Assembly (NCBI GenBank): GCA_028876495.1
Contig: JAGWRO010000086.1
Location: 1-35,343, forward strand
Reading direction: 5' to 3'
DNA length: 35,343 nt
From: Bacteroidota bacterium
GTDB lineage: Bacteria > Bacteroidota > Bacteroidia > Chitinophagales > Chitinophagaceae
Shown: positions 2,123 to 20,077 of the stretch, one piece after another
Position numbering within the stretch: position 1 is the first letter of the stretch
Layout: each line of letters opens with the position of its first letter
Position numbers and translations under genes: made by a program
The notes under the pieces: model-generated
What the model was told of the DNA's origin: nothing
What the model saw: only the letters and a program-made list of their open reading frames with translations
Databases searched by the model: none

Positions 2123-2178
2123 GTCATTAGATAAGTCATTGCCGTCGCCTGGTCACACGACCAACGAAAGGTTTAATT

Positions 2179-2202
2179 CCACTTCGACAGGATCAGTATA
2201 AC
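2179..2202 (+). repeat. Degenerate REP-like module (ACTTCGACAGG-TCAGT)
   Basis: A degraded copy of the CTTCGACAGGCTCAG family seen at 267-290. It is preceded by ACGACCAACGA, a remnant of the CCAACGACA module, so the two-module order of the left-edge copy is kept. It sits in the gap between two convergent genes. Confidence 0.5.
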
Positions 2203-2259
2203 AGGAAAATCGAACTTTCAGCATCCAGTATCCTCTATTTAACCCCGTTACTTCTTTTT

Positions 2260-4037: not shown

Positions 4038-5315
4038 TTAATATATCCAAAATTCGTTCGTCGGAAAAGCACTTTGAAAAAGTTGCGATATTCCGGTTCC
4101 GATAATGGCCCTGCCGGCCACCACTCCTGCAACCCCTGCAGATTGTGACCCGGGAAAGTCTGCAACTTGTGTCCACTTATCCAGTGAGGGATCATATTCC
4201 CACACATCATTTAAACCTACACCCACATATTGCCCTTGTGATGGATTATCTATCGTAGTGCCACATGCAATATATCCCTTGCCATTTATTACAAACGTAT
4301 AGGGTGCTGCTCTTCCCTTACCCGGAAAATCATTCTTTTTAGTCCATAGATCTTCGGAAGCATCGTATTCATAAACTGTTTTAAGATTAGTTACGTTTTC
4401 GATACCTGAAACCTGGTAGCCTTTATTATTGATCGCGAAATAATAAGGACCTAAATCAACGGTAGTTGCGGGGAATACAGCTTTTGTCGTTAATGAATCA
4501 CCGGATGGATCAAATTGATACAATGTTTTATAATATAAAATGTAAGCTTTTGTATCTGTAGCAAATAAAGCGGAAGTGATCGGTATATTTTCATCTATAT
4601 TACTAAAAGTTGTAACCTGCGTCCAGCTATTGGTTTGCGGATCAAACTGCCAGACATCGTAATATTTTATGTCCACGAAATTTATATTTTGGCCCATTGC
4701 AATATATCCTTTCCCATTTATTGCAAATCCTTTTGCAAACTCCCTTGGTCCTCCGGGAAAATTGGGGAGTTGTGTCCAGGTATCGGTAGTTAAATCATAC
4801 CGGTAAAAATCACTCACATCTTGATCGGAATTTGAGACTCTGGCTCTTCCCAGTCCTACATAAAAATAATTTCCTATAGCAAAACTTGACGCCGCGATTC
4901 TTTCTGCTCCTGGTAAAGGCGCAATTTGTTTCCACTGTTTTTCTACTAATTGGGTCACTTTAATAGTTACTGCCGGCACAGAATTATTTTTTGAATTAAG
5001 CAAAATATCTGCTGTTCGAACAGAAGAGGTTTTATTGGCTTCAAGAGCTTTGATCCGCACAATGGACGAACCGCTTCCCACAGTGGTATCTAATTTAAAC
5101 CAGGTAACTGACGAAGGGCTCAGCGATAGTGTCCATTGTCCGGTATAATAAACCTTGAAAGAATCAATGTTGTTAATACTTCCTCCAAGTGTAAGACTGC
5201 TGCTGTCAGCTGTTAACGGTGAATACGAAGATGAATTATTTTGCTGGTTGCTTTGCTTTTTGCAAGCGATTAAATAAAGAAATGTAACAAAAAGGATAAT
5301 GGGTATTTTTTTCAT
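4038..5315 (-). CDS. BACON domain + Kelch-repeat lipoprotein
   Basis: A 425-residue surface lipoprotein. The start at 5315 gives signal peptide and lipobox Cys18 (YLIACKK), followed by a Ser/Asn-rich linker. Residues ~35-125 look like a BACON beta-sandwich (GQWTLSLSPSSVTWFKLD, ending in TIKVTQ), common in Bacteroidota surface proteins. The rest is made of five to six Kelch blades, each with a glycine-rich strand and a Y-x-Y-D...W-T/K pattern (FYRYDLTTDTWTQL, VWQFDPQTNSWTQV, VYEYDASEDLWTKK, VWEYDPSLDKWTQV). Kelch propellers of this kind bind carbohydrate or protein ligands; galactose-oxidase copper ligands are not evident, so enzymatic activity is not claimed. No partner gene adjoins it. Confidence 0.88.
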   Translation of the reverse strand: MKKIPIILFVTFLYLIACKKQSNQQNNSSSYSPLTADSSSLTLGGSINNIDSFKVYYTGQWTLSLSPSSVTWFKLDTTVGSGSSIVRIKALEANKTSSVRTADILLNSKNNSVPAVTIKVTQLVEKQWKQIAPLPGAERIAASSFAIGNYFYVGLGRARVSNSDQDVSDFYRYDLTTDTWTQLPNFPGGPREFAKGFAINGKGYIAMGQNINFVDIKYYDVWQFDPQTNSWTQVTTFSNIDENIPITSALFATDTKAYILYYKTLYQFDPSGDSLTTKAVFPATTVDLGPYYFAINNKGYQVSGIENVTNLKTVYEYDASEDLWTKKNDFPGKGRAAPYTFVINGKGYIACGTTIDNPSQGQYVGVGLNDVWEYDPSLDKWTQVADFPGSQSAGVAGVVAGRAIIGTGISQLFQSAFPTNEFWIY

Positions 5316-5378
5316 AGCTAGTTAATTTTGACTATAAAACTATAATTTTTTTATTTGAAAGACCTTTTTTTTATTTTC

Positions 5379-5490
5379 ATGTATGAAAGCACCGGTGAAG
5401 TTACCCGCTTCACTGATTTTCGGGATCCTAAGCCACGATCAAGACCGGTGTTTACGTTTCACCGTCCTGAAACTTTTAATGAACGGCTGG
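5379..5490 (+). pseudogene. hsdR gene fragment (relic of a type I restriction subunit)
   Basis: About 112 bases here align with hsdR at roughly 8278-8390. The frame from the ATG at 5379 reads MYESTGEVTRFTDFRDPKP, then RSRPVFTFHRPETFNERL, against YESTGEVTRFTDYRDPKP in HsdR (about residues 103-137). Most differences are silent third-position changes, so the piece diverged under or after protein-level constraint. It is not a recent copy. The homology stops abruptly at 5490, where the GGCAATCTT inverted repeat begins; the frame runs on to a stop at 5505-5507. It is probably a remnant of another type I locus. Confidence 0.8.
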
Positions 5491-5533
5491 CAATCTTACC
5501 ATCTTGAACCATGAACACAAGCAAAAGATTGCC
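5489..5533. repeat. Inverted repeat GGCAATCTT / AAGATTGCC
   Basis: Arms at 5489-5497 and 5525-5533, the same family as 3704-3752. It begins exactly where the hsdR relic ends, which suggests that insertion or recombination at the repeat made the junction. The rest of the 360-base gap (5316-5675) contains another GGCAATCT half-site near 5600 and a CTTACAATGACG module near 5580, and no gene. Confidence 0.55.
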
Positions 5534-5675
5534 GCGTCGCCATTTCAATTTACCGTGCGAAGGAAGATTTTCTAAGGCTCCTTACAATGACGCAAGCCGG
5601 TTGGCAATCTCCCCATCATGAACCTTCCCCCTTCCCCAATAAAAATCTGCTTTATTTCTTTGCTTACTGAAAAAA

Positions 5676-6290
5676 TTACTGTGCCCACATGCTTGCCGGG
5701 CTGCTATACGCCTTTTGTTTACCGGTGCCCAAAACCGCAATCCTTACCCAGTATCTTTGCCCGGGCGTAAGGTTGGTAAAAGTGTACTTCCTGCGGCTAC
5801 AGCTATGCGTTTCCCAGGTACTGTCCGAAGTTAAAGCGCCGTAGGTAATCTCAAAAATGTAATATTTGGCGCCCTTCACCGCTTTTATCATACCGGTAAT
5901 CTCGCCACTGCTAATACCGGATCTAAGTGTGGGCTGTTGCGGTGTTTCCAGTTTATTTTCCACAGGTTTTTTGGTAAGATTGTAGCCGCTGCTTACTAAA
6001 ATCGCTTCACTTTCATCTGCCACATACATTACATATAATGCCAGGCGGCCAAGCTGATGCTCCAGTCGTTTCCTCAACTGGTTTTTTAAGGCAATATCCA
6101 CTATATTTTTCGTTGCTGCATCTGTGAGTGACTCGCTAAATTGGTTCACTAATTCACTGATCGTTTCCAGTGGTGGAACCGGGTCAGGAAAATGAGGATT
6201 GTTTTTCATGCTGAACACAATGTTCTCGGCAAATACTAAAAAACCGGCGTCGTTGTAAGGGACAAAGTTGGTACTTAAGGCTTGTTTCAT
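5676..6290 (-). CDS. Fibronectin type III domain protein
   Basis: A 204-residue protein with no visible signal peptide. Residues ~1-105 are predicted helical and start with a recognisable module (FVPYNDAGFLVFAENIV ... LRKRLEHQLGRLALYV). Residues ~115-204 form a fibronectin type III sandwich: the E-to-G strands read YYIFEITYG, KYTFTNLTPGQRYWVRIAVL and AYSSPASMWA. Proteins of this size and layout recur in Bacteroidota, but their role is unknown to me. The start at 6290 is supported by an in-frame Met just after an A/T-rich leader. The 21-bp tandem repeat lies upstream of it. Confidence 0.8.
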   Translation of the reverse strand: MKQALSTNFVPYNDAGFLVFAENIVFSMKNNPHFPDPVPPLETISELVNQFSESLTDAATKNIVDIALKNQLRKRLEHQLGRLALYVMYVADESEAILVSSGYNLTKKPVENKLETPQQPTLRSGISSGEITGMIKAVKGAKYYIFEITYGALTSDSTWETHSCSRRKYTFTNLTPGQRYWVRIAVLGTGKQKAYSSPASMWAQ

Positions 6291-6399
6291 GAGTTGTTAG
6301 TTTTAGAAGTTATTGTTGGTAAACGACTGCGCAGCTCTCATTATTGTTTTCCTTAATAATTTAATGAATAGTTGCAGTGGTTTGGCGGATGATCCCCAA

Positions 6400-6630
6400 C
6401 ATTCATTGAATAACGCAAAACATTTGGTAAATGATCTTTATCATTCGTTGAAACACCGGCATCATTCAACAAATTATTGTAGTAATGCAACGAATTATCT
6501 TCTTAATTCAATAAATTATAGTTATCATTCATCAAAAGAGCGTAATCATTCATCAAATGGTTGTAATCATTCATCGAATGATTGTGATAATTCATCGAAT
6601 TATTGAAATCATTCGTTGGATAATTGGCAA
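6400..6630. repeat. Eleven exact-length 21-bp tandem repeat units
   Basis: From 6400 the sequence divides into eleven consecutive 21-base units with no indel, most starting CATTC or AATTC (for example CATTCATCGAATGATTGTGAT at 6568, of which the first 17 bases are near-palindromic). Units diverge by substitution only. Because 21 is divisible by three, a + strand frame (6313-6606) reads a heptapeptide repeat such as HSSNGCN HSSNDCD. That 97-codon frame is stopped by TGA at 6604 before the last unit, so coding status is doubtful. The array lies upstream of the minus-strand fibronectin-III gene and could be part of its leader. Confidence 0.85.
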
Positions 6631-6933
6631 TAACAGGCTTAAAATGAGCTTCCGGATAAGGGTACGATCATTTTGTGCAGATAAATAATCGGATGTAGGC
6701 AATGGTTCGGGGAGGTTTTGCTAACAAATGATCGTATGTGCGTAATGGTAGTACCGTCATTGGTGTATAGGATGGCTGTCTTGTACTCACTTTCAGGGAA
6801 GTTGTTGCATGGGGAAGGGTAGTATTAGCCAGGTTTTTTCGGCTCAGGCAGTGGGTATTTATTCTTTTTAAATTAATTTTATCCGGGGGCATAAACCAAA
6901 ACCATAGAATCGCATAAGCGATAAATCAATTGT

Positions 6934-7188: not shown

Positions 7189-7252
7189 TTCAGCGGATTG
7201 CCGGCAAGAGAAGGGTAGTGGAAGAAGAAAAAAGGAAGATTTTTATTTGACA

Positions 7253-7445
7253 GCTGGCGCAGGACTCCCGACCTGTGACTTTTCGTTACTCTGTTAAGAT
7301 GTATCGTCCTGAAAAAAGTTTACACAATTTTAAGATAATCCGGTTATAAATGTACATAATAGATTATGATTTGCTTTTTATATAGTGTGTCTGATAACGC
7401 AATTCAAGTAACGCTGTTGCACAGGTCTGGAGACCTGCGCCAGCA
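7253..7445. repeat. MITE-like element with ~40-bp imperfect terminal inverted repeats
   Basis: The left end (7253-7292) starts GCTGGCGCAGGACTCCCGAC, and the reverse complement of the right end (about 7404-7445) starts GCTGGCGCAGGTCTCCAGAC. Both continue through ACCTGTG to CGTTAC. The ~110-base interior has no open frame. A solo end occurs at 3859-3896. No target-site duplication is obvious, so it may instead be two inverted solo repeats. Confidence 0.5.
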
Positions 7446-7566
7446 AGAGGATTAAAAAGCGCTTCCTCTTCTATGGAACACAGCCGTATGTGCCTGGTTT
7501 TTAACGTGCAAGCACATTTGCCTTGTTTTTTTGGGAGCCAGCTTTTACAAGAATAGGGTAGTTTTT

Positions 7567-7661
7567 GGCAGACGCTGCCCGTACGGTACAGCTCTGTGCC
7601 ATTTATTAACCCTGTAAAGCAGGCTAACCCAACTTCCGGTGGAAAAGCCGGAAGATTTTTT
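7567..7661 (+). terminator. Run of small hairpins ending in a terminator-like stem
   Basis: Within the 786-base gap before hsdR there are three hairpins on the + strand: GGCAG-ACG-CTGCC (7567-7579), GGTACA-GCTC-TGTGCC (7585-7600) and CTTCCGG-8 nt-CCGGAAG (7633-7654), the last followed by ATTTTTT. The final one has the form of an intrinsic terminator. It is ~445 bases after the last gene, so it may end an unannotated small RNA; no known RNA family is recognised. The remaining 7662-7974 stretch is A/T-rich and presumably holds the hsdR promoter; I could not fix a clear -7/-33 pair. Confidence 0.4.
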
Positions 7662-7974
7662 GTGGGAGGTATTATAAAATGGTTTAACCCGAAGGATGTT
7701 TCGCCTTGTTTTATTTGTTATTAAAGGTAACCAGGCTCATAATAGCTTAAGGCATAGGCCTTCCTATAAAAATTACTTTTTGTTTTATTATTTTAAACAT
7801 TACCTTTAAAATCTATAATTGTTAATCAGGCACTTTAAACTAAAACCCAAAACGCTTCATTGAAACAAAGAATTATAAGGCCTTAACGTTCAATTTATAT
7901 CGAACCCTTTTTGTCTTTTGTATAGAGTAAGTGCGTTATAAGTTTTTTTGTTTTATTGAATTTATTTAATAATA

Positions 7975-10776
7975 ATGCCAAACCAAAACCCGGAGCAACT
8001 CGCAAGGGATAATATCGATAAGGAACTTCTCGCCTGTGGCTGGGTGATTCAATCTAAGAATGAAATCAATCTTATTGCAGGTTTAGGTGTTGCTGTCAGG
8101 GAATACCAAACCGATGTAGGTCCTGCTGATTATGTATTATTCGTTGACAAAAAACCGGTTGGTGTCATAGAAGCCAAAAGAGCCGAAGAAGGCGTCCATC
8201 TTACCGTGCACGAAGATCAATCAGAAGGTTATGCTTCCGCAAAACTGAAATATTGCAACAATGAAAAACTTCCTTTTGTATATGAAAGCACAGGGGAAGT
8301 AACCCGCTTTACCGATTATCGTGATCCTAAACCGCGGTCAAGGCCGGTATTTACTTTTCATCGTCCTGAAACTTTTGCTGAATGGCTCAGGCAGGGCAAT
8401 TCGTTAAGGGCAAGATTACACGATCTACCTGAATTACCGGAAGAAGGATTGAGGGATTGCCAGATAAATGCGATTCATAACCTTGAAAAATCTTTCAAAC
8501 AATACCATCCGAAAGCACTCATACAGATGGCAACCGGCTCCGGAAAAACTTATACGGCCATTACTTTTATCTATCGCCTTTTAAAATATGCTAAAGCAAA
8601 AAGAGTATTGTTTTTGGTAGATACCAAAAATCTTGGCGAGCAGGCAGAACAGGAGTTTATGGCCTATGTGCCGAATGATGATAACAGGAAGTTTACTGAG
8701 TTATATGCGGTAACAAGATTGAAAAGCAGTTTTATACCCACCGATAACCAGGTGTATATTTCTACGATTCAAAGAATGTATTCTATTTTAAAGGGAACGG
8801 AGTTGGATGAAAGTGCTGAGGAACTGAACCCTAACGAATACAAACAGAAAGAACCGCAACCGGTAATTTACAATGAAAAAGTACCGATAGAGTTTTTTGA
8901 TTTTATTGTAATTGACGAGTGCCACCGCAGCATATATAATTTATGGAAACAGGTGCTTGATTATTTCGACGCTTTCCAGGTGGGCCTCACTGCCACGCCT
9001 GACAACCGCACCTTTGGATATTTTAATCAAAACCTGGTTAGTGATTATGGATATGAAAAAGCCGTGATTGACGGAGTGCTGGTGCCTTACAATGTATTTA
9101 CGGTTGAAACGAAAATAACCAAAGACGGGAGCAGGATAGCGTTGGGAGAAAAAGTGGACAAACGGGAAAGGATAACGAGGCGAAAGTTTTGGGAAGAAGT
9201 GGATGAAGATATTGAATATACAGGCAAGCAACTCGACAGGGATATTGTAAACCCGAGCACCATAAGAACGATTGTTCGTGCGATAAAAGAAAATACACCT
9301 GCCATGTTCCCGGACAGGCTTGGAAAAGATGGTAGCTTTGAAATTCCTAAAACGTTGATCTTTGCCAAGACAGATTCTCACGCAGAAGATATTATTGAGA
9401 TTGTAAGAGAAGAATTCGGGGAAGAAAATAAGTTTTGCAAAAAGGTAACCTACAAAAGTGACGAGGACCCCAAGACTGTTTTATCCAATTTCAGGAATGA
9501 TTATTATCCGCGTATAGCCGTTACCGTTGACATGATTGCAACGGGCACAGACATACGCCCTTTGGAGATTTTGGTGTTTATGCGTGACGTGAAGAGCCGT
9601 AGTTATTATGAACAAATGAAGGGCCGCGGCACGCGCACCTGTTCGCTGGAAGACCTTAAAGCAAAGGGCACACCCTCGGCAAAATTTACGAAAGATCATT
9701 TTGTAATTATTGATGCGATTGGTGTGGAAAGTTCACAAAAGACAGATAGCCGCCCATTGGAAAAAAAGCCGGGACTTACATTGAAAGATCTTTTGCAAAA
9801 CGTGATCATGGGAAATACGGATGAAGAAATATTAAGCTCACTTGCCAACCGGTTGATACGTTTGGATAAACAAATAAACGCTACCGAAAAAAACACTTTT
9901 ACCGAACATGCCAATGGCGCTACCATTCATCATGTAGTACAGCAATTGCTGAATGCACACGACCCGGACACGATAAAAAATGCAGAAACGATTATAAGGA
10001 AGGACCTGCAGGGACAGGCGCCTGTGGTAATAGAAGCTGCCATACAAACAGAGAAACAAAAAATAGTAGATGAAGCTATAAACGTTTTTCATAATCCTGA
10101 ACTGAGGAATTATATTTTGGATGTTCGTAAAAAGTACGACCAGGTAATTGACGGCATCAACATAGATGAGATCACTAACATTGGCTGGGTAAAAGACCAG
10201 GAAGCAGCAGCAGAATTGACCATTAGCAATTTTACCGCATGGATAGAAGCGCACAAAGATGAGATAACTGCCCTGCAAATATTTTATGGCCAGCCTTACC
10301 GGCGCCGTGAGCTTACTTATAAAATGATAAAGGAACTGTATGATAAAATAAAAATGGAGCAGCCGTTGTTAGACCCGGTAATTGTATGGAGGGCATTTGA
10401 AAAAGTACAACCAAAGGAAGATGTCACCCTGAGCTTGTCGAAGGGGCCAAAAAATGAATTGATTGCGTTGGTAAGCCTTGTACGTAAAGTGAGTGGCGTT
10501 GATAAAACACTTACTCGCTATGATAGTGCGGTTGACAGGAATTTTAAAGACTGGCTGTTTAAACAAAATGCCGGGCAACATAATAAGTTTACGGAAGAGC
10601 AAATGCAATGGCTGCGCATGATAAAAGATTATATAGCCAACAGCTTTCACGTTGAGAAAGAAGATTTTGAACTGGACCCCTTTAATAAAAACGGGGGCCT
10701 TGGAAAGATGTGGCAATTATTTGGAGAGAAGACGGATGAAATAATTGAGGAGTTAAATGAGGTGCTGGCGGCTTAA
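7975..10776 (+). CDS. hsdR: Type I restriction enzyme, R (endonuclease/translocase) subunit
   Basis: A 933-residue HsdR of the EcoEI-like subgroup, which translocates and cleaves DNA in complex with HsdM and HsdS. An N-terminal PD-(D/E)xK nuclease is visible: D52 in GPADYV, then E66-x-K68 in GVIEAKRAEEG. The SF2 motor follows, with Walker A ATGSGKT (~186-192), DECH box VIDECHRS (~312-319), LTATP (~338) and motif V/VI ATGTDIRP ... YYEQMKGRGTR (~544-554). The C-terminal ~200 residues are the helical assembly domain (ELTYKMIKELYDKIKMEQP). All key motifs are intact. A REP-like module is built into the reading frame near residue 817. It opens the island; the next gene starts 99 bases on, and base composition shifts clearly to AT-rich there. 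Confidence 0.97.
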   Translation: MPNQNPEQLARDNIDKELLACGWVIQSKNEINLIAGLGVAVREYQTDVGPADYVLFVDKKPVGVIEAKRAEEGVHLTVHEDQSEGYASAKLKYCNNEKLPFVYESTGEVTRFTDYRDPKPRSRPVFTFHRPETFAEWLRQGNSLRARLHDLPELPEEGLRDCQINAIHNLEKSFKQYHPKALIQMATGSGKTYTAITFIYRLLKYAKAKRVLFLVDTKNLGEQAEQEFMAYVPNDDNRKFTELYAVTRLKSSFIPTDNQVYISTIQRMYSILKGTELDESAEELNPNEYKQKEPQPVIYNEKVPIEFFDFIVIDECHRSIYNLWKQVLDYFDAFQVGLTATPDNRTFGYFNQNLVSDYGYEKAVIDGVLVPYNVFTVETKITKDGSRIALGEKVDKRERITRRKFWEEVDEDIEYTGKQLDRDIVNPSTIRTIVRAIKENTPAMFPDRLGKDGSFEIPKTLIFAKTDSHAEDIIEIVREEFGEENKFCKKVTYKSDEDPKTVLSNFRNDYYPRIAVTVDMIATGTDIRPLEILVFMRDVKSRSYYEQMKGRGTRTCSLEDLKAKGTPSAKFTKDHFVIIDAIGVESSQKTDSRPLEKKPGLTLKDLLQNVIMGNTDEEILSSLANRLIRLDKQINATEKNTFTEHANGATIHHVVQQLLNAHDPDTIKNAETIIRKDLQGQAPVVIEAAIQTEKQKIVDEAINVFHNPELRNYILDVRKKYDQVIDGINIDEITNIGWVKDQEAAAELTISNFTAWIEAHKDEITALQIFYGQPYRRRELTYKMIKELYDKIKMEQPLLDPVIVWRAFEKVQPKEDVTLSLSKGPKNELIALVSLVRKVSGVDKTLTRYDSAVDRNFKDWLFKQNAGQHNKFTEEQMQWLRMIKDYIANSFHVEKEDFELDPFNKNGGLGKMWQLFGEKTDEIIEELNEVLAA
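10423..10445 (-). repeat. REP-like module inside hsdR, translated as VTLSLSKG
   Basis: The bases GTCACCCTGAGCTTGTCGAA-GGG are the reverse complement of the intergenic CCCTTCGACAAGCTCAGGGTGAC module (compare 20749-20771). Here it lies in frame in hsdR, giving the characteristic peptide VTLSLSKG at residues ~817-824, between two helical segments of the C-terminal domain. It is more intact than many intergenic copies in the window. Confidence 0.85.
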
Positions 10777-10875: not shown

Positions 10876-11751
10876 ATGGCAACAGACAAAAAAAGTAAAG
10901 ATCTTCAATTCTATTATTATCGTTATCAGATTGTTCCTACTAGTAGTTCAATTCAAACGACTATAGATGATTACGAAATAAAGGATTATGAGGATTTAGT
11001 TTCAAAGAAAAATAGAATTTTTCGGGACGTTGTTAATTCGAAATCAATCCTAATGCAAGGAAGAAGTGCAGATTATATTTATAAGGTGTTATCTGTTGAA
11101 CATAATTATTTTTTACTGAGAATTGCAAGAAAAAAAGATATTAATATAGATAAGGAAGACTTTTCAGAAGAGACTATAGTTTCATATCCTAATGTATTAA
11201 TCTTAATAGACAATAGGCCGAGCGTCCAACAGTTAATAATACAAATGAATTATAAAGCTTTCGAAAGTACAGAGGTAGTAGCAAACATTTTAGAAAAGAA
11301 TTTTAACAGGTATTTACATCAGTATCAACTTTCTTTTTACTTAAGACCCATTACAGAAAAAAAAGAGTTTTGGGAATTAACTAAGAAATATGAGGATCGA
11401 ATAACTCAAGTTGCGTTTGAGATTATTAAGCCTAATATGGCAAACATTTCAAAAAATCTGAGCGAAGATTTAAAAAGCTTACAAAAAGACACTAATAGCC
11501 ATAAGACTAAAATTGAACTAAATTCAGCTCAAGACAGTAGATTGGAAAATTTAAATGAGAAAAATGGTGAATTGGCTGGATTGGTGCATTACGCAAATGA
11601 AGGCGGAGGAGAGATTATTGTAAAAGTTAAAGGAATACGAAAGAAGCTACATACAAATAAGCAAGTGATAACTGAATCTATAGATGAAATTGCTATTAAA
11701 GGCACCGATCCCAAAAAAATGCTTGATATTTTAAAAGCAGTTTTAGTATAA
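10876..11751 (+). CDS. Unrecognised protein between hsdR and hsdS (291 aa)
   Basis: A soluble, lysine-rich protein of 291 residues with no signal peptide or membrane helix. I do not recognise a named family with confidence. Visible layout: an N-terminal alpha/beta part (FYYYRYQIVPTSSS ... YPNVLILIDNRPSVQQLIIQ), a middle section ending FWELTKKYEDRITQVAFEII and PNMANISKNLSEDL, and a C-terminal segment with LAGLVHYANEGGGEIIVKVKG. The architecture recalls the loosely defined DUF4747/RexA-type antiphage proteins, but this is an impression. The next gene, a small membrane protein, begins after a 1-base gap, so the two are almost certainly co-translated and probably work together, as RexA and RexB do in lambda. 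Strongly AT-rich compared with hsdR. Confidence 0.8.
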   Translation: MATDKKSKDLQFYYYRYQIVPTSSSIQTTIDDYEIKDYEDLVSKKNRIFRDVVNSKSILMQGRSADYIYKVLSVEHNYFLLRIARKKDINIDKEDFSEETIVSYPNVLILIDNRPSVQQLIIQMNYKAFESTEVVANILEKNFNRYLHQYQLSFYLRPITEKKEFWELTKKYEDRITQVAFEIIKPNMANISKNLSEDLKSLQKDTNSHKTKIELNSAQDSRLENLNEKNGELAGLVHYANEGGGEIIVKVKGIRKKLHTNKQVITESIDEIAIKGTDPKKMLDILKAVLV

Positions 11752-11752
11752 T

Positions 11753-12181
11753 ATGAATTTGGTAAAAAACATATCGTTCTATATCCTCTTGGCAGTTGTA
11801 ATCAATTGTTCTGCAAATTATTTGAATAGCGATTTTATTGGACCTTTTTTAAAAAATAACATTGTTTCAATTCTTATAAATCTGCTAGCAATAAATATTG
11901 CCACATGTACTATTTTAATGACAAAACTTAATGAAATAAAAGAAAAACACCAGGTTGATTTTTCCTCGACTTATAAGGAACTTAAGCTTTCTTTAAAGGA
12001 ACAAGTTATATTGATTGCTATTTCTTTTATTGCGTTAGTCTTTGATAAAAGCACCGTCTTAATTGCCTTTATCCCACATTATACAATATGTATTAATGTG
12101 ATCCTTACTGCTGTTTTTATTTATGCAATTGATATTTTGTGGGATATAGGTAAAGCGGTATTTACAATAATTAATCGTTGA
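11753..12181 (+). CDS. Small four-helix membrane protein
   Basis: A 142-residue protein with four likely transmembrane helices at about residues 6-24, 35-56, 82-100 and 110-132, linked by a charged loop (TKLNEIKEKHQVDFSSTYKE). It starts one base after the stop of the 291-aa gene and ends 7 bases before hsdS. Length, topology and order (soluble ~280 aa, then ~140 aa 4-TM) parallel lambda rexA-rexB, in which RexB is a membrane effector, and more loosely Kiwa (membrane KwaA, soluble KwaB). I see no diagnostic sequence match to either, so a membrane effector role is inference from context. Confidence 0.8.
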   Translation: MNLVKNISFYILLAVVINCSANYLNSDFIGPFLKNNIVSILINLLAINIATCTILMTKLNEIKEKHQVDFSSTYKELKLSLKEQVILIAISFIALVFDKSTVLIAFIPHYTICINVILTAVFIYAIDILWDIGKAVFTIINR

Positions 12182-12188
12182 TGTAAGA

Positions 12189-13532
12189 ATGGAAGAAATA
12201 GTAAAGAATTCAAAATGGGTAAAATTGGGAGAATACGTAATTTCCGTAAAAGGGAAAAAGCCTAAACGTGTTTCAAAAGAAAAGACTAAGGAATATTCAA
12301 TCCCGTATGTAAATATCAAAGCTTTTGAAAAAAAAATTATTGATGAATATACAGATGGGGTTGGATGTGCTTTATGTGAAGATAGAGATTTTTTAATGGT
12401 CTGGGACGGCTCACGTTCAGGATATGTTGGTAAAGCAATTAAAGGTGCATTAGGAAGTACTTTAGTGAAATTGAATTTTCCGGATATTGAAAATAATTAT
12501 GCTTATTATTTTTTGCAATCAAAATTCATTGAAATAAATACTAGAGCAAAAGGAGTTGGTATTCCACATGTTGATCCTAACATTCTTTGGAATTATGATT
12601 TATTAATTCCTCCTAAAATCACTCAACAAGCCATTGTTTCCAAAATAGAAGAACTCTTTAGCGAAATAGAAAATGGCATTAAAAGTTTGCTTACTGCGCA
12701 GCAGCAATTAAAAACTTACCGGCAAAGTGTGTTGAAATGGGCGTTTGAGGGAAAGTTGACTAATAGCCTAAACTATGATTCTTTTGATTTGCCTGATGAA
12801 AATGATTTAAGCATGGTAGCGGAGCCGGATACTGAATATAAAATCAAAAAAAATCAGAATAATCAAAATAATCAAATAAATCATAGTTCAGATAAAGGGG
12901 AATTGCCGGAGGGGTGGAAGTGGGTGAAAACAATTGATGTAATTAAAATTATCAATAACGGTTACACGCCAACAAGCCAATACTTATCTCAAGGTTCTGG
13001 AGAAGTTCCTTTTATTAAAGTGTACAACCTTAATTTCAATGGTACTTTAAACTTTGAAAAAAATCCCACATTCATTCCTGAAGTCATACATAAAAAAGAC
13101 CTGAAACGTTCTATTTGTTTGCCTGGGGATGTTTTAATAAATATTGTTGGACCACCTCTTGGAAAAGTCTCTATTGTTACAAATCAATATCCCGAATGGA
13201 ATATTAATCAGGCAATCGTTATGTTCAGACCAAATGAAGATGTAATATCCAAGTATATTTCCTATTTCATGCAGAACGTGGTAACAACTAGTTGGCTCGA
13301 AAATACTTCAAAGGCAACAGCGGGACAATGGAATGTAAAGGTTTCTACTTGCAGGGAAATCCCTTTTCCGTTCTGCTCAATTGATGAACAGCAAAAGGTT
13401 GTTGAGGCCATAGAAAGCCGCCTTAGCGTAGCTGACAAATTGGAAGAAAGTATAAACCAAAGCCTTCAACAGGCAGAGGCATTGAAACAAAGTATTTTAA
13501 AGAAGGCGTTTGAGGGAAGATTAATAAAATAA
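12189..13532 (+). CDS. hsdS: Type I restriction enzyme, S (specificity) subunit
   Basis: A 447-residue HsdS with the usual two-fold layout. TRD1 covers ~1-145. The central conserved region follows (QQAIVSKIEELFSEIENGIK ... YRQSVLKWAFEGKL). TRD2 starts at LPEGWKWVKTIDV, ~235-390, and the distal conserved region (DEQQKVVEAIESRL ... LKQSILKKAFEGRL) mirrors the central one. Each TRD should read half of a bipartite DNA target. The linker between the halves contains an A8 run and a 9-bp tandem repeat encoding an Asn/Gln-rich stretch. The gene starts 7 bases after the membrane protein and ends 10 bases before the GHKL ATPase. Confidence 0.96.
   Translation: MEEIVKNSKWVKLGEYVISVKGKKPKRVSKEKTKEYSIPYVNIKAFEKKIIDEYTDGVGCALCEDRDFLMVWDGSRSGYVGKAIKGALGSTLVKLNFPDIENNYAYYFLQSKFIEINTRAKGVGIPHVDPNILWNYDLLIPPKITQQAIVSKIEELFSEIENGIKSLLTAQQQLKTYRQSVLKWAFEGKLTNSLNYDSFDLPDENDLSMVAEPDTEYKIKKNQNNQNNQINHSSDKGELPEGWKWVKTIDVIKIINNGYTPTSQYLSQGSGEVPFIKVYNLNFNGTLNFEKNPTFIPEVIHKKDLKRSICLPGDVLINIVGPPLGKVSIVTNQYPEWNINQAIVMFRPNEDVISKYISYFMQNVVTTSWLENTSKATAGQWNVKVSTCREIPFPFCSIDEQQKVVEAIESRLSVADKLEESINQSLQQAEALKQSILKKAFEGRLIK
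12846..12884 (+). repeat. A8 run and 9-bp tandem repeat in the HsdS linker
   Basis: Eight A residues (12846-12853) run into about 3.5 copies of a 9-base unit (AATCAGAAT, AATCAAAAT, AATCAAATA, AATCAT; 12852-12884), coding KKNQNNQNNQINH. Slippage of the 9-mer would change linker length by three residues; slippage of the A-run would shift the frame and give a half-length HsdS. Confidence 0.75.
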
Positions 13533-13542
13533 TTACAAGAGA

Positions 13543-14748
13543 ATGTTTCAAATTAAAATAAATAAGAGTATCAAATTAGATGAGGTTGAACAACTCTATA
13601 TACAGTTGTATCGACACATCAAGTTAGATATTGTCGTTGATTTGCTTTTACCTGTTGAACTTGACAGCAGCTATATTGGTATTGTGCCAACTCTTTACCA
13701 ATTTGTTTTTACTTGGATGCGATATGAAAAGTCAGGAAAACTATTATTAGATATTTCTAATCCCGAAGCAACAGACTATAATGAGTTGTATGAAAACGAA
13801 TTGATTTTTCCATTAGTAAGCTTAGTTTGGGATAAGAACGAAGTTTTTGATAAAACAGGAAAGATTAACCTTAGGAAGCATTTGAAAAAATACAATGCTA
13901 TCTATTTTGATAGAATGAAAGCGGTCACTGCCCAAAAAAATTGGAAACTGTTACTGACAAATTTTGACCACTTATCAGAAGACCGCGGAATCTTGCCATG
14001 CTTTGAAATAAATGGGGTATTCATTGCCAACGAAACTTCATTGTCAAATAATTTAAAAGGCGGAATCCAACAACTTCTTGCTTATTCAAAAGATGCTCAA
14101 AAATCTTACGATGATATTCAAGGTCATTTAATGGGGATTGTTTACGAACTAATGAAAAACACATTTGAATGGGGAAACAAAGATGAATATAATGTTCCAT
14201 TAGACCCTAGTTTGAGAGGAATTTTAATCAAGTTCTATAAAAAGACCAGACGAAAATTGGTTGAGGAATTTAAAGCTCATAAGGGACTTTCAACATACTT
14301 TAAAAGCGATGTTTTAAAAGAGAACAATTTATCAGAGATATACTTTTTGGAAATTGATGTATTTGATAGCGGGATTGGCTTTGTAAAAAAATACAAATCG
14401 CTTAATCCTACCGAAAAGTTATCAGATATAGATATAATCAAGAAATGTTTGATTAAGCACAACACATCAGCCAAAGGATTAGAAAAAGGAGATAAAGGGA
14501 TTGGGCTAGACAGAATCCTAAGCATCCTTGACGGCAAAGGATTTCTGAGAATAAAGACAGGGTGCAATATTATTTATAGAAATCTTATTAGCGACCCTTA
14601 CAAAAAAATAGAAAAGGAATCGGTAGCAGACATGGAACTTTTTGACTGGAAAAATAACAGCAATGAAGTTTATACGACTTACCCCTTTGCAGAAGGTAGT
14701 ATAATTACAATTATTTATCCTTTATCCTTCAACTTAAAAGATGAATAA
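13543..14748 (+). CDS. GHKL-type (HATPase) ATP-binding protein within the R-M operon
   Basis: A 401-residue protein with a Bergerat ATP-binding fold in its second half. The N box is VYELMKNTFEW (E~202, N~206). The G1 box is DVFDSGIGF (D~275, G~277, G~279). The G2 region is KGDKGIGLDRIL (~314-325), and a final strand reads GSIITIIYPL. The first ~185 residues match no domain I recognise; they could be a sensor or a partner-binding part. There is no DHp/His phosphoacceptor or receiver, so it is not a standard histidine kinase. GHKL ATPases of the MutL/MORC kind are known to accompany restriction systems. The stop overlaps the start of the next gene by 8 bases (ATGAATAA), a strong sign of translational coupling. 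Confidence 0.85.
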   Translation: MFQIKINKSIKLDEVEQLYIQLYRHIKLDIVVDLLLPVELDSSYIGIVPTLYQFVFTWMRYEKSGKLLLDISNPEATDYNELYENELIFPLVSLVWDKNEVFDKTGKINLRKHLKKYNAIYFDRMKAVTAQKNWKLLLTNFDHLSEDRGILPCFEINGVFIANETSLSNNLKGGIQQLLAYSKDAQKSYDDIQGHLMGIVYELMKNTFEWGNKDEYNVPLDPSLRGILIKFYKKTRRKLVEEFKAHKGLSTYFKSDVLKENNLSEIYFLEIDVFDSGIGFVKKYKSLNPTEKLSDIDIIKKCLIKHNTSAKGLEKGDKGIGLDRILSILDGKGFLRIKTGCNIIYRNLISDPYKKIEKESVADMELFDWKNNSNEVYTTYPFAEGSIITIIYPLSFNLKDE

Positions 14749-17110
14749 TTTTTATATATATAAATTCAACTACACAAAAAAAGAAGAAGGAAATGACAAA
14801 ATCATTTCTGTTTCTGTAATTTTTTGCGATAGAGAAACTATAAACGAGGATAACCTTAAAGATGAGATTAGAAAGTTCTATGAAATGAACTATCAAACGG
14901 ATGAAATTTATGTAATTGGTAGTCAGCTTCAGAAGGGTTTATTGAAAGAAGTATTCATTGATAACCAAGGCAAGACTTTTATAGGGATACCTAAGAAACA
15001 AGAAACACATTTATCAGAAAGTCTTTACATACTCACTTTTAACAAACTTGGAGAACTAAGTTGTTGTAACGAAAAGAAAATACCAAAAGAGTTTTTAAAA
15101 AACTTTTTGAATGAAGGATTGCAAAACATTTTTATCACACGAGGTGGTTTAGTTACATCAGAAGGGTCACATCACTTTGTTTTTCCATCAGGAAAACATT
15201 GTGATAAATTTTTAAGGACTGGAAATGTTCTGCTGATTAGTTCAGAAATATATTTTGTTGCTTTCGCACTACTCAAACATTTTGATGAAACAAAGCACAA
15301 TCAAATATATTGTGATACATCTTCAATAAACAGTGTTGCCTTTGCTCTTTCTGAATTAAAAAACAGGTTTATTCCCATCGCCGAACGCAAACAAATTCCA
15401 ATTGAAAGTTTTAGTTCTTATGACGGATTGTATAAAAATGAACTGTCATATACTAAGAATGCATTTCTAATTATTTCCGCTTCTACATCATCAAATATCA
15501 TAGCTTATATTTTGAATAGTCACAAAATTTTAAGCCGTGAAAATATTACAGTTTTGTATTATTTAGGCGATGCAAATAATTATGTTCAGATAAAAGACAA
15601 AACTATTTGCAACCTGACTTACAAATTAAAGACAAATCCAAATGGAATCCCTTTCATAAAGACTTTCAAAGGCGATGATTGCGAGTATTGCAAAAGAGGC
15701 TCTTATGCCGTTGAGGTTAAGGGTGATGTTTTCCTTTTAGAAAAGCCTAAAATAAATCCAATTGTTTTAAGTATCAAAGACCCTGAAAAATATTTATCGG
15801 GTTTGCTTGAACAATTCAAATCAGTTGAAAGAAAGCAAAATATTTTCAAGGTTAATTATAAAGAAAATTCAAATTTCAAATATGAGATTTACATAAATTT
15901 TTATGAAATTCTTGAGGGAATTAAAAACGGCAGGTATGATAAGTTCAACCAAAAATTAAATGACTATATAAATCAATTCGTTCCAAGTAATCTGAAATAT
16001 CTTATTACTCTCAATGATGTTGCTTCATCTGACCTTGCTAATTATATAATAGATAAAATCAAACAAAATTACAAGAAGGCTAAACTTCCTAAGAAAATTA
16101 CACAGGATGAGTTAAGTGAAATCAAAATGAATTCAGAAGGAACTGCTTTGGTTGTTGGATCGTGCATCGCTAACGGTAAAAATTTATTATTCATAAGCAG
16201 GGCTTTGAGAAAGTTTGATAAACTGAGAATAGTTTATTTTGTTGGAATATCAAGAACAAAAAACAGAGAGTATTTAGCATTTTTAAAGAGTAATTTAAAG
16301 CAGGGTAAACATGGTAGTGAATCAAGTAGTTTTATTGATGTTGAATCTATTTACTGCAACAATGATTCTAAAAACACATCATGGCTTTCTGAAATTAAGT
16401 TTCTTAAAAAGCTGATTGAATTTGTAAGTGATGAAGATTCATCTTCCGCCCACTTGCAATATTTGAAGGAAAGAAAAAAAATGCTTGAATCAAGCCAGGG
16501 GGACAGAGATAAAGGGCTCGCTAATAAATTATTTTACCCAAGATTTTCAAATTCAAAAATTGAGGAATTAAGCATTAGGAAAAATTTTGCCTTTTTCAAT
16601 TTTGACCACTATGATACTGATGTTTCACAAGCAGATATTTATTTCACTATTTCCAACATCATAAATACTTTAAGAAATTCAAATCCGAATGGGAATAGTG
16701 AAAAATCTGAAAGAACTTTAAAACAATCTGTGTATGTTAGAAATATTCTTGACCCAGCAAACTTTAGCAGATTCAATGACGGCATAATTCAATCTTCCAT
16801 TTTAAGAGCAGCTTATCCAGAAGAACTTAGTTACGGAATTGATAATGACATTTCACAAGAAATGACAAATACACTTGAAACTATTATCAAGTATTGTGTT
16901 GATGAGCAAGGAGAGGCTTTACTTGAATTCTTGTATGCTATTGCCAATAAAAAAATGACTTTAAAAAAGATTCATTTGCAGAAAATAGTTGATTTGCTAA
17001 CTGAAAGAATCGAAACAGATTTGATAAAATGGTTCACAAAATATATTGACAAGAAAGTTTTAAATGAGGAGGAAATTACTTTGAAAAAACTTTTCCCTCG
17101 AACTCCTTAA
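14741..17110 (+). CDS. Large phosphoribosyltransferase-like protein paired with the GHKL ATPase
   Basis: A 789-residue soluble protein with no family I can name firmly. Two regions look like class I phosphoribosyltransferase folds. Around residues 130-210 there is FPSGKHCDKFLRTGNVL, then IYCDTSSINSVAFALSEL. Around 465-500 there is EGTALVVGSCIANGKNLLFI, then SRALRKFDKLRIVYFVGISR. The second aligns with the PRPP-loop pattern (hydrophobic strand, acidic pair, loop, helix), but the usual DD pair is replaced by GS, so catalysis may be lost or altered. A CEYC pair (~314-317) could bind metal. The C-terminal ~150 residues are helical. It starts inside the end of the GHKL gene and stops 14 bases before hsdM. 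Likely forms one functional unit with the GHKL protein; function unknown. Confidence 0.8.
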   Translation: MNNFYIYKFNYTKKEEGNDKIISVSVIFCDRETINEDNLKDEIRKFYEMNYQTDEIYVIGSQLQKGLLKEVFIDNQGKTFIGIPKKQETHLSESLYILTFNKLGELSCCNEKKIPKEFLKNFLNEGLQNIFITRGGLVTSEGSHHFVFPSGKHCDKFLRTGNVLLISSEIYFVAFALLKHFDETKHNQIYCDTSSINSVAFALSELKNRFIPIAERKQIPIESFSSYDGLYKNELSYTKNAFLIISASTSSNIIAYILNSHKILSRENITVLYYLGDANNYVQIKDKTICNLTYKLKTNPNGIPFIKTFKGDDCEYCKRGSYAVEVKGDVFLLEKPKINPIVLSIKDPEKYLSGLLEQFKSVERKQNIFKVNYKENSNFKYEIYINFYEILEGIKNGRYDKFNQKLNDYINQFVPSNLKYLITLNDVASSDLANYIIDKIKQNYKKAKLPKKITQDELSEIKMNSEGTALVVGSCIANGKNLLFISRALRKFDKLRIVYFVGISRTKNREYLAFLKSNLKQGKHGSESSSFIDVESIYCNNDSKNTSWLSEIKFLKKLIEFVSDEDSSSAHLQYLKERKKMLESSQGDRDKGLANKLFYPRFSNSKIEELSIRKNFAFFNFDHYDTDVSQADIYFTISNIINTLRNSNPNGNSEKSERTLKQSVYVRNILDPANFSRFNDGIIQSSILRAAYPEELSYGIDNDISQEMTNTLETIIKYCVDEQGEALLEFLYAIANKKMTLKKIHLQKIVDLLTERIETDLIKWFTKYIDKKVLNEEEITLKKLFPRTP

Positions 17111-17124: not shown

Positions 17125-18624
17125 ATGAGCAAAAACACGAATAATACTTCTTCCATCGTTTCCAAAATCTGGGCCTTCTGTAATACCCTTCGTGATGATG
17201 GAGTAGGCTATGGCGATTATTTGGAGCAACTAACTTACCTGCTGTTTTTAAAAATGGCAGATGAATATAATAAGCCGCCTTACAATCGTACCATGCCCAT
17301 TCCAAAAGCTTATTCATGGGAAACGCTTACCAATAAAAGCGGCGATGAGTTAGAGGTTCATTACAATAACCTGCTGCGCGAACTGGCAAAAGAAAAGGGC
17401 ATACTCGGGCAGATTTTTACCAAGAGCCAGAACAAGATACAGGACCCTGCGAAGTTGTATAAACTCATTGCCCTCATTGATGCAGAGCAATGGGTGCTGA
17501 TGGGCGTAAAAGACAAAGGCGATATTTATGAAGGCCTGCTGGAGAAAAATGCGGAAGATACCAAGAGTGGTGCCGGTCAGTACTTTACGCCAAGGGCATT
17601 AATTAAATGCATGGTAGAATGTTTGCGCCCGGAGCCAATGAAAACCATTGCTGATCCTGCATGTGGTACTGGTGGTTTCTTTTTAGCCGCTTATGATTTT
17701 ATTACCGATGAAAATAATTATACACTCGATCACGATCAAAAGAAATTTCTTAAATACGATACCTTCTTTGGAAATGAAATTGTAGCAGGTACAAGAAGGC
17801 TTGCCTTAATGAATTTGTTCCTGCATAATATAGGAGATATTGATAGTGATCACGTAATGATATCTTCTAACGATTCATTAATTGCCTCTTCAGAAACAAG
17901 GTATGATTATGTGCTGGCCAATCCGCCCTTTGGTAAAAAAAGCAGCATGACCTTTACCAACGAAGAAGGTGAGCAGGAAAAAGAAGACCTAACTTATAAC
18001 CGCCAGGATTTTTGGGTTACTACCAGTAACAAACAACTCAACTTTGTACAGCACATAAAATCAATGCTAAAGACAACAGGTCTGGCAGCAGTGGTTTTAC
18101 CGGATAATGTTTTATTTGAAGGTGGCGCCGGTGAGACCGTAAGAAAGAAATTATTAGAAACAACAGACCTGCACACCATACTTCGTTTGCCAACAGGAAT
18201 CTTTTATGCCAATGGCGTAAAAGCAAATGTTTTATTCTGGGATGGCAAACCGTCCAGCAAAGACCCATGGACAAAAGAAGTATGGATATACGATTATCGT
18301 ACGAACATTCATCATACTTTAAAAAAGAATCCATTAAAGCTGGATGACCTTAAAGATTTTATAAATTGTTACAACCCAACGAACAGGCATAAACGAAATG
18401 AAACTTATACTGAAGCAAACCCTGATGGTCGCTGGCGAAAATTTACTTACGAAGAAATATTAGCCAGGGATAAAACCTCTTTGGATATCACATGGCTGAA
18501 AGATAAATCATTGGCAGACTTAGATAACCTTCCTGATCCGGATGTATTGGCGTTGGACATTGTTGAGAACCTGGAAGCAGGGTTGGAAAGTTTTAAGGCA
18601 ATAATTGCTTCGTTGAATAAATAA
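17125..18624 (+). CDS. hsdM: Type I restriction enzyme, M (N6-adenine methyltransferase) subunit
   Basis: A 499-residue HsdM. The N-terminal helical HsdM_N domain spans ~1-135 (DDGVGYGDYLEQLTYLLFLK is typical). The methyltransferase has the family lead-in GQYFTPRALIKCMVECL, SAM motif I DPACGTGGF (~177-185) and catalytic motif IV NPPF (266-269), so it is predicted active. HsdM with HsdS methylates adenine at the target sequence and protects host DNA from HsdR. It lies 14 bases after the PRTase-like gene, i.e. separated from hsdS by two cargo genes, which is unusual; hsdM and hsdS are commonly adjacent. Base composition returns to that of hsdR here. Confidence 0.97.
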   Translation: MSKNTNNTSSIVSKIWAFCNTLRDDGVGYGDYLEQLTYLLFLKMADEYNKPPYNRTMPIPKAYSWETLTNKSGDELEVHYNNLLRELAKEKGILGQIFTKSQNKIQDPAKLYKLIALIDAEQWVLMGVKDKGDIYEGLLEKNAEDTKSGAGQYFTPRALIKCMVECLRPEPMKTIADPACGTGGFFLAAYDFITDENNYTLDHDQKKFLKYDTFFGNEIVAGTRRLALMNLFLHNIGDIDSDHVMISSNDSLIASSETRYDYVLANPPFGKKSSMTFTNEEGEQEKEDLTYNRQDFWVTTSNKQLNFVQHIKSMLKTTGLAAVVLPDNVLFEGGAGETVRKKLLETTDLHTILRLPTGIFYANGVKANVLFWDGKPSSKDPWTKEVWIYDYRTNIHHTLKKNPLKLDDLKDFINCYNPTNRHKRNETYTEANPDGRWRKFTYEEILARDKTSLDITWLKDKSLADLDNLPDPDVLALDIVENLEAGLESFKAIIASLNK

Positions 18625-18684: not shown

Positions 18685-19340
18685 ATGTCTAACGAAGAAA
18701 TCTTCCAAGAGCTCCTTGAGCAAACAAAACAAGCTTTTACTGATAGCCCAATTTACCTAAAGCAGAAGGAACTTGCGAAAAAGTGGAACTATTCGGTTTG
18801 TGGTACGCCTATTCAAACTTCAAAGGCTGTCCTTATGGGCATCAACTGGGGGTAGATGGAGATCACGAGCCTCAAAATACTTTGCCGGATGGTAAGGATA
18901 TAGCCGGTTATCCTTTTATTAAAAGAAGCAGAAAGTACCTGGAAAATTATCTTCACCTGGATTTTGATGATATAAACTTTAATTATACAAATCTTTGTTT
19001 TTTTCGTTCACCCCAGCAGAAAGATTTAAACTATCATGATTACAAAGTATCGCTTAAGCTTTTCAAACAATTTGTTGATTACATAAAGCCTCCGTGGATA
19101 TTTTCTCTTGGTGATTCCAATAGTAAACTTCTCGAAGAATTAAATGTTTTGGATAACAAAAATGAACTGCCAAATAAGGACGCGAAATTTAGGGGTATTA
19201 CTGGTGAACTTTGGGGGATTACCTATTTCTCCGTTCCTCATCCTAATGCACGGGTAAAATCTGAACTGAGAGAAGAGATTTGGAAGTGTATTGGAGATGA
19301 ATTTAATAAAAGGTTCAGAGGTAATGATTTTAAAAAATAA
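18685..19340 (+). CDS. Uracil-DNA-glycosylase-superfamily-like protein, interrupted by a -1 frameshift
   Basis: The ATG at 18685 opens a 56-codon frame ending KAVLMGINWG and a TAG at 18853. The other frame continues directly as VDGDHEPQ... to 19340. Adding one base to the G5 run at 18848-18852 would join them into a ~218-residue protein. The joined protein has the layout of the glycosylase superfamily: VLMGINWG (motif 1 strand-loop), FNYTNLCFF, KPPWIFSLGDSNSKLLEEL, and VPHPNAR as the second active-site loop. A shorter start (GTG at 18783) would lose motif 1. It follows hsdM by 60 bases and precedes a second glycosylase-like gene by 14. It may be a pseudogene, a sequencing error in a homopolymer, or (less likely) recoding. 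Confidence 0.7.
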
Positions 19341-19354
19341 TAAAGTAGTAAAAA

Positions 19355-20077
19355 ATGAGTCTTGACGAATTATTTAAAGCATCAAAAGAATTAAATTATT
19401 CCCAGTCAAATGGAATGATAAAAGTGAATGAGATGAGAGGCCCGGGTTTCTTTCCCGGCTGCACTGGTACAATAGATTCATTAGAAAACATTTCAGGTTT
19501 ACGGTTCATGATATTGGGACAGGACTTCGATACAAAAGCAAACCATAAAGAAATTAATCCTATAAAAGGAGAAATAGAAACAAATACTACATGGCGTAAT
19601 TTGAGGAAATTATTGAAAGAAGTTGGTATTAATGAAAAGGAATGTTTTTTTACCAATGCTTACATGGGATTGAGGCCGGATAATACTAAAAGTGCTAAAA
19701 CTAAAAACACCGGGAAAAGTCCTGCTGCTAAAAAGGGAGCGGAGGGTTTTTCGGACCAATGCTTAAAGTTTTTCAAAACACAATTGCAGATAGTAAAGCC
19801 CGAAGTGGTTTTGGTGCTAGGAAAAGAAACAGCACAATTTGTTGCAAATGCTTTTCCAGAATGTTCGAAATGGTCACATATAAAAACCTTGAAGACATTT
19901 TATGAAAATGAAACAACTGTATTTGCTGAAGTAACGTTTGATAATCGGAGTATCCATTTTCTTTTTGTTATTCATCCTTCATTGAATATTGTCAACCGCT
20001 CAAAGATTTGGGGAAAGGAAGAGGGAAAAGAAAAAGAACAGAAGTTGCTGAAAAAATTGTTATCAGGAATTTCTTAG
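19355..20077 (+). CDS. Uracil-DNA-glycosylase-superfamily-like protein
   Basis: A 240-residue protein with the alpha/beta order of the UDG superfamily: MILGQDFD (G55-Q56-D57, like the water-activating GQD motif of family 1), CFFTNAYMGLRP (~97-108), VKPEVVLVLGKETAQF (~148-162) and FVIHPSLNIVNR (H207-P208-S209, like the HPS loop). Both active-site loops appear intact, so base-excising activity is plausible; whether the substrate is uracil or a modified phage base cannot be read. Antiviral glycosylases of this superfamily that act on modified phage DNA (Brig1) are known. It lies in a downstream group with the preceding related gene and an HNH endonuclease, all on the same strand as hsdM. Confidence 0.78.
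   Translation: MSLDELFKASKELNYSQSNGMIKVNEMRGPGFFPGCTGTIDSLENISGLRFMILGQDFDTKANHKEINPIKGEIETNTTWRNLRKLLKEVGINEKECFFTNAYMGLRPDNTKSAKTKNTGKSPAAKKGAEGFSDQCLKFFKTQLQIVKPEVVLVLGKETAQFVANAFPECSKWSHIKTLKTFYENETTVFAEVTFDNRSIHFLFVIHPSLNIVNRSKIWGKEEGKEKEQKLLKKLLSGIS

Follow-up and report, generated by a model that had tools for sequence, protein, structure and literature searches.

The window considered here (35,343 nucleotides) is the whole of contig JAGWRO010000086.1 in assembly GCA_028876495.1, a Chitinophagaceae (Bacteroidota) genome of 4.7 Mb in 99 contigs, and our subject is a pair of overlapping genes embedded in its type I restriction operon. Gene A (13543..14748, + strand; 401 codons) is predicted to encode a GHKL-type ATPase, and gene B (14741..17110, + strand; 789 codons), whose nearest relatives are in Bacteroidota, a tandem pseudo-phosphoribosyltransferase. 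Together they constitute a member of the catalogued candidate system PDC-M65, for which an anti-phage defence role is probable on sequence and context. More tentatively, at somewhat less than an even chance, the pair would be an ATP-switched defence module that acts on pyrimidine nucleotides.

Family membership was assigned with PADLOC-DB v2.0.0 (2023), where PDC-M65 is a two-protein candidate carrying no description; the prefix stands for 'phage defense candidate' (PMC12548924). Protein A, taken from the list of open reading frames (ORFs), matched PDLC04764 (PDC-M65A) at 492 bits and an E value of 2e-148, residues 1-397 aligning with positions 1-396 of the 398 in the profile, and protein B matched PDLC04765 (PDC-M65B) at 994 bits and 1.2e-299, residues 1-773 aligning with positions 1-759 of 763. 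Because both proteins match their models over the full length, the gene pair is not a chance association. An earlier note on this DNA had not recognised the pairing as a described defence system; it is, however, listed in this database. Pfam gave no match for A and one insignificant match (0.1) for B, and NCBIfam gave none for either.

The PDC-M65B model matched 7 of 395 genomes of the phylum. Two of these matches were short PyrE-like genes, leaving true relatives in five genomes, the window's own included, and none of 14 control genomes was matched. Scanning GTDB genomes with a single peptide pattern from the C-terminal block of B gave 118 confirmed relatives, and the counts are biased toward relatives that keep that block. 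The best 80 of the 118, together with one relative from viral contigs (IMG/VR), form the 81 loci referred to below (given L numbers where they need to be told apart), and ten plasmid records hold further relatives. Some relatives lie on contigs of metagenome-assembled genomes (MAGs), where binning errors are possible; the B proteins of L026 and L031 are identical, and L038 and L040 share one genome. Most members come from Bacteroidota and Pseudomonadota, with single members in Planctomycetota, Acidobacteriota, and Melainabacteria. The grouping of a Limnohabitans MAG among Bacteroidota on the B tree suggests horizontal transfer or a binning error. E. coli genomes yielded no DNA-level match to the Pantoea pair, and phage records no protein match to B. 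On a Spirosoma plasmid (L010, 9974-12327), B is split into two overlapping frames, and this copy may be inactive.

A survey of co-occurrence, which the earlier note had proposed, found the two genes consistently paired: in 77 of the 81 loci, A immediately precedes B in the same orientation. Three of the four exceptions have B within 310 bases of a contig end, and the fourth (L056) is a short B without A. The distance matrices of A and B, compared over 74 loci, correlate at r 0.96, the maximum of 2000 permutations being 0.13.

Protein A is, on the order and invariance of its motifs, classed as a GHKL-type ATPase. An alpha/beta N-terminal region (about residues 1-160) is followed by the C-terminal ATPase region (about residues 183-393 of 401), the boundaries of both being set by secondary structure and motifs. 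The N box, E202...N206 (14146..14160, + strand), the G1 box, D275-S-G277-I-G279 (DSGIG, residues 275-279; 14365..14379, + strand), and the G2 box, G319-I-G321-L322 (GIGL; 14497..14508, + strand), occur in the expected order. E202 and N206 of the N box, D275, G277, and G279 of G1, and G319, G321, and L322 of G2 are invariant in all 75 aligned A proteins, in agreement with the intact boxes reported in the earlier note. GyrB, MutL, and Hsp90 have the same ExxxN spacing, and in them the glutamate activates water. The structure model of A is confident (predicted local distance difference test, pLDDT, 93), apart from the low-confidence residues 311-314 just before G2, which would fit a mobile ATP lid. 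The GHKL assignment rests mainly on these motifs because fold and HATPase_c matches, detailed below, are weak. A viral fold search with A returned nothing at E ≤0.001, its top match being an unnamed 233-residue protein at E 0.017, and a sequence search of PDB chains returned one insignificant match for A (0.86) and nothing for B.

The structure model of B is likewise confident (pLDDT 90.3) and resembles orotate phosphoribosyltransferases (PRTases). Foldseek returned ten PDB chains at E ≤0.001, of which eight are orotate PRTases or UMP synthase and two are HP1257 (entered as hypothetical); the top match, 4rv4, is an orotate PRTase (E 1.2e-4, probability 1.0). Two PRTase-like regions had been read from the letters of B in the earlier note, which named structure prediction as a check; the prediction recovered the PRTase fold (orotate PRTases, E 1e-4), and profile comparison independently supports the N-terminal half. 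The short PyrE-like genes matched by the PDC-M65B model (L007 and L008; E 2e-6 and 7e-4), one of them also matched by Pfam Pribosyltran at 3e-13, belong to a PyrE-like subfamily of this phylum (L007, L008, L124-L131) with a cysteine tail, CPLCxxG...PGSR, colinear with a CxxC of B. The eight members examined among the ten score under the NCBIfam pyrE cut-off, and the set may not be PyrE proper.

For the profile comparison, 29 of 32 PyrE-like ORFs passed a length filter of 265 residues and L111 and L123 were left out, giving 10 cysteine-tailed and 17 other sequences. B residues 124-200 aligned in hhalign with residues 3-73 of the cysteine-tailed set (n = 10), and in a second segment, with order preserved, B residues 307-324, which include the CxxC, aligned with residues 166-182 of L008, its CPLC tail. 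Scores of B against this set were 41.5 and 36.2; 20 column shuffles reached at most 20.5 and the reversed control 16.1. The hood motif of B, HFVFPSGKHCDKFLRTGNVL (residues 145-164; 15173..15232, + strand), aligns with a stretch of L008, and its residues H145, F157, and R159 are present in 81 of 81 proteins. The CxxC picked out in the earlier note is C314 and C317 (15680..15691, + strand), kept in 76 of the 81. Most likely, the N-terminal half of B derives from a cysteine-tailed PyrE-like protein. Direct evidence for the C-terminal half is marginal (hhalign 24.5); the homologous half of B in the divergent locus L019, described below, matches Pfam Pribosyltran (1.7e-4, residues 468-522) and PRTase-CE (0.0018, residues 423-540), both under the gathering score, and by way of this domain and the marginal hhalign score the C-terminal half of B would also be PRTase-like. 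The whole protein is then best described as a putative tandem pseudo-PRTase from a duplicated cysteine-tailed orotate-PRTase-like fold, the duplication being argued partly from divergent relatives.

Because both of its phosphoribosyl pyrophosphate (PRPP) loops are without the acidic pair that marks a catalytic PRTase, B is not an ordinary member of this enzyme class. The first loop position reads FLIISASTSS (residues 242-251; 15464..15493, + strand) and the second lies in the ALVVGSCIANG region (residues 470-479; 16148..16177, + strand); acidic residues occur in none of the 81 B proteins at 245/246 and in none at 473/474. The earlier note had seen that GS replaces the acidic pair in the C-terminal loop (VVGSCIANG), and the N-terminal loop (IISASTSS), on which it was silent, proves to have lost it too. 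Other residues of the loops are retained: S246 in 81 of 81, S250 in 80, G479 in 78, and R490 in 81. The residue after the Ser/Thr-rich phosphate-type loop is Gly in 74 of the 81 and Ser in the window protein, and the place of the pyrophosphate loop, so named by analogy, is taken by IYCDTSSI (residues 189-196; 15305..15328, + strand), with D192 in 81 of 81. The loops are thus not in decay but conserved in a non-canonical form, a pattern that suggests a changed ligand or binding role. The strictest block of the protein is C-terminal (RxNDGxIQ...R plus E729) and holds 8 of the 20 invariant residues of B, an invariance partly imposed by the search pattern, which lay in that block. At its core is R677-F-N-D-G-I-I-Q...R689 (16769..16807, + strand), where R677, N679, D680, G681, I683, Q684, and R689 are invariant in all 81. 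W548 and E551 (16382..16393, + strand), at the place of the second CPWCRE of divergent pairs, are likewise both invariant in the 81.

These features also bear on a different kind of defence module, in which B would be a scaffold or sensor: its PRTase fold, though degenerate, would bind DNA or protein of the phage or else a signal nucleotide, and the RxNDGxIQ block or A would supply the toxic or protective activity. Such a module would accord with the absence of both acidic pairs from all 81 B proteins, with the share of invariant residues found in the C-terminal block, and with the weak best folds of A, GyrB/ParE and MORC2, which are DNA-acting families. We consider it somewhat unlikely, however, since H145 and R159 of the hood, like S246, never vary among the 81, as expected of a ligand pocket in working order, the C-terminal conservation owes something to the search itself, and the association with thyX described below would be left unexplained.

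In the window, the pair is flanked by hsdS directly upstream of A (12189..13532, + strand; Pfam Methylase_S 9e-23) and hsdM directly downstream of B (17125..18624, + strand; Pfam N6_Mtase 6e-68 and HsdM_N), with hsdR further upstream (7975..10776, + strand; Pfam ResIII 5e-41, EcoEI_R_C 3e-38). The ORF coordinates confirm the overlap of 8 bases between A and B given in the earlier note, as the Pfam matches of the flanking genes do its statement that the pair separates hsdS from hsdM. The operon-like run comprises hsdR, two small genes, hsdS, A, B, hsdM, and two uracil-DNA-glycosylase-like genes. Since only 10 nucleotides separate hsdS from A and 14 separate B from hsdM, cotranscription is likely, and the pair probably shares the transcript of the restriction operon. 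Promoter and terminator scans gave numbers no better than chance.

This arrangement invites the proposal that the pair assists or regulates type I restriction, controlling for example HsdR or HsdS. The short spacers and probable cotranscription would fit such a role, as would the fact that an HsdR-like cluster is the commonest neighbour in clustering (12 of 94 loci). Yet a type I subunit lies within 4 kb in only 15 of the 94 loci (14 found by BLAST, and L076 by hidden Markov model search; in L064 this is an SF2-type gene alone, on the opposite strand), and in 8 of the 71 loci with 4 kb on both sides, so that 63 of the 71 are without one. In such operons the pair may be internal, last, or first: S-A-B-M (the window), S-A-B-R (L061), R-M-S-A-B (L059, L069), A-B-M-S (L037), and M-S-x-R-A-B (L035, L036, L050). 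When rows of the B tree were labelled for restriction, the 14 labelled of 81 required nine changes, at least seven of them forced by well-supported branches; without L043, L051, and L076, 11 rows are labelled and eight changes remain. Against this counter-evidence, the label is more clustered than chance (nine changes against a shuffled mean of 13.2). On the B tree, the pair has nevertheless moved into or out of type I restriction operons on at least seven occasions. Because positions vary and the label changes repeatedly, we regard the pair as a recurrent guest and not a subunit of these operons; it is not consistently accompanied by hsdR, hsdM, and hsdS. The nesting between hsdS and hsdM emphasized in the earlier note holds for the window and not in general, most relatives lying outside type I operons. 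An accessory role, counter to both distribution and tree, was rejected as improbable.

Other neighbours bear out the defence-type context proposed in the earlier note. The pair neighbours Qat in Pseudomonas aeruginosa, TIR proteins in Rhizobium, and a ThiF/multiubiquitin set. In five Rhizobiales loci (L012, L133, L134, L092, and L080), the gene of a FAD-dependent thymidylate synthase, thyX, lies next to the pair in the same orientation; three are from Rhizobium, one from Agrobacterium, and one from Bosea, with thyX upstream in four and downstream in Bosea. Between Bosea and the other thyX loci, ThyX is 63% identical and B 34-35% identical, so that the association either survived a long separation and a reordering of the genes or originated on two occasions. 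The genomes of R. bangladeshense 1002 and Bosea Root483D1 each have this thyX as their only Thy1 match, alongside one ThyA match; because ThyA is there too, ThyX is an extra thymidylate synthase in both genomes checked. Together, thyX and the PyrE-like ancestry of B point to pyrimidine nucleotides, and we infer that these would be the target of B.

The same two features, the orotate-PRTase-like fold and the thyX neighbour, would equally suit a mobile metabolic or regulatory module serving pyrimidine salvage or a stress response, with no anti-phage role, as would the recombinases, integrase, or transposases that adjoin some loci. Such a module seems quite unlikely given its patchy distribution (the five genomes among 395 of the phylum), its repeated placement in restriction operons, and the company of Qat, TIR, Argonaute, and Avs1.

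The last two of these neighbours belong to divergent sister pairs. The window's own genome carries a second A-B pair on contig C41 (L019; features at 443-3335, 4226-6856, and 7230-10684), with an A-like protein at E 3e-15 and a B-like protein at E 4e-20. It lies downstream of a TIR-Aga gene (E 6e-113) and a short Argonaute gene (E 8e-192), named Aga_TIR and pAgo_I in PADLOC, whose models gave these values, and of a type III restriction gene; the Argonaute/TIR pair we take to be SPARTA-like. On plasmid pHG1 of Cupriavidus necator H16 (L132, 6371-9788), another divergent pair sits beside Avs1b and Avs1c; its A matches PDC-M65A at 9e-6, and its B has no PADLOC match at 0.001. Both B proteins have DD at the second PRPP loop, a placement obtained by adding these two proteins to a fixed alignment and supported by Pfam for L019, and both read CPWCRE where M65B has xSWxxE; that of L132 has two CxxC. 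A search for close relatives placed the divergent B of L019 in 1 of the 395 genomes of the phylum, that of the window, and plasmid matches came from two records of a single Cupriavidus plasmid. As a lead from two examples, the second half of the sister kind may have enzymatic activity, and M65B may be a degenerate form related to it.

In the ATP-switched reading that we tentatively prefer, a portable two-gene anti-phage module would sit in the type I restriction operon. A would serve as sensor and switch, ATP binding closing its lid and changing its contact with B, and B, which keeps the hood and a Ser/Thr-rich loop, would bind a pyrimidine (deoxy)nucleotide. On infection, A would release B, which would attack or lock up that nucleotide pool, and phage replication would stop at a cost to the cell. 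A thymidylate link enters the model because thyX adjoins the pair in the five Rhizobiales loci; in the two genomes checked, where thyA is also present, ThyX might be a bypass or partner enzyme, protecting or assisting. A bolder and unlikely extension would see a class of immunity built on pseudo-PRTases, in which B, a tandem protein of PyrE descent, is set loose by its ATP-gated GHKL partner and captures or destroys a pyrimidine deoxynucleotide on the thymidylate side, with ThyX as embedded self-protection or bypass. A sister class (beside Argonaute/TIR and Avs1) would keep a working catalytic loop in its second half for true phosphoribosyl transfer or its reverse.

Several observations weigh against the nucleotide-directed defence reading. 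For A, Foldseek against PDB placed ParE/GyrB first (E ≥0.07) and MORC2 next (E ≥0.19), with none at E ≤0.001, and HATPase_c was matched at E ≤0.05 by 6 of the 75 A proteins, that of the window not among them. For B, Foldseek also gave helicases and remodellers (E 0.004-0.009, probability 0.2-0.5); the hhalign probabilities against the cysteine-tailed set were moderate, at 61% and 33%, or 84% when the N-terminal half was used by itself; and canonical PyrE (n = 17) scored just 24.5 with the C-terminal and 21.5 with the N-terminal half. With both acidic pairs gone, B might bind no nucleotide. As to context, the thyX association is confined to one Rhizobiales group, the great majority of full-flank loci lie away from type I subunits, and annotation of other defence genes, on which any enrichment depends, covered some of the neighbours and not all.

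Two further sets of genes in the operon-like run were noted. Between hsdR and hsdS lie two small genes, 10876-11751 (291 residues) and 11753-12181 (a hydrophobic protein of 142 residues), that had no significant family match and no similar gene in the 100 loci compared, and the first had no relatives among plasmids; they are possibly a second embedded module. Directly 3' of hsdM are two tandem family-4 uracil-DNA-glycosylase-like genes (18783-20077), with none similar in the same 100 loci.

A database candidate that had lacked an explanation has thereby become a hypothesis that can be tested. B has been given a fold and a likely ancestor, none of the sampled family retains the catalytic acidic residues, and the two genes are seen to enter and leave restriction operons together; with thyX and a PyrE-like ancestry in view, pyrimidine nucleotides are the first thing to measure. 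Term searches of one literature library found no paper on PDC-M65 or on 'PRTase-CE', nor any that describes thyX beside the pair, the sister kind, a descent of B from PyrE-like proteins, or the family-wide loss of the acidic pair. In DefensePredictor (PMC13092281), one validated system is reported to contain a thymidylate synthase domain, and a PRTase appears in the figure that shows the validated systems.

Among known systems, the closest is PDC-M65 itself, of which the window pair is a full-length member in both proteins with no difference noticed. PDC-M66, likened to DS-6 (a HipA-like kinase with DUF3037), is also a two-gene PADLOC candidate, its proteins being unrelated to those of M65; an architecture like it occurs in the validated system DS-6 (PMC12548924), a case showing only that PADLOC candidates can prove active. 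With orotate PRTase (PyrE) and the cysteine-tailed PyrE-like proteins, B shares the fold, the hood motif, and the colinear CxxC tail; it differs from PyrE in its 789 residues, the absence of the acidic pair from both PRPP loops, and a long C-terminal helical region. The MutL/MORC-type GHKL proteins of restriction islands, to which the earlier note had likened A, have in common with it the ExxxN, DxGxG, and GxGL boxes and a genomic link to restriction. In MutL and MORC, however, the GHKL domain is N-terminal and followed by an S5 domain, whereas the boxes of A are C-terminal, with the alpha/beta region ahead of them, and about 8 residues follow the last strand (judged on secondary structure, not coordinates), leaving no room for S5; the GHKL part of that likeness stands on its motifs and MutL/MORC membership was rejected on architecture. 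Finally, the retron type III-A PRTase effector (PRTase-CE, Pfam PF24390) is likewise a PRTase domain in a conflict system, and the B protein of L019 matches PRTase-CE (0.0018) and PRTase_III-A (0.0047). The window B matched neither in the Pfam and PADLOC scans, and no reverse transcriptase was among the ten window proteins scanned with Pfam; unlike the retron, the M65 system has as its partner a GHKL-type ATPase.

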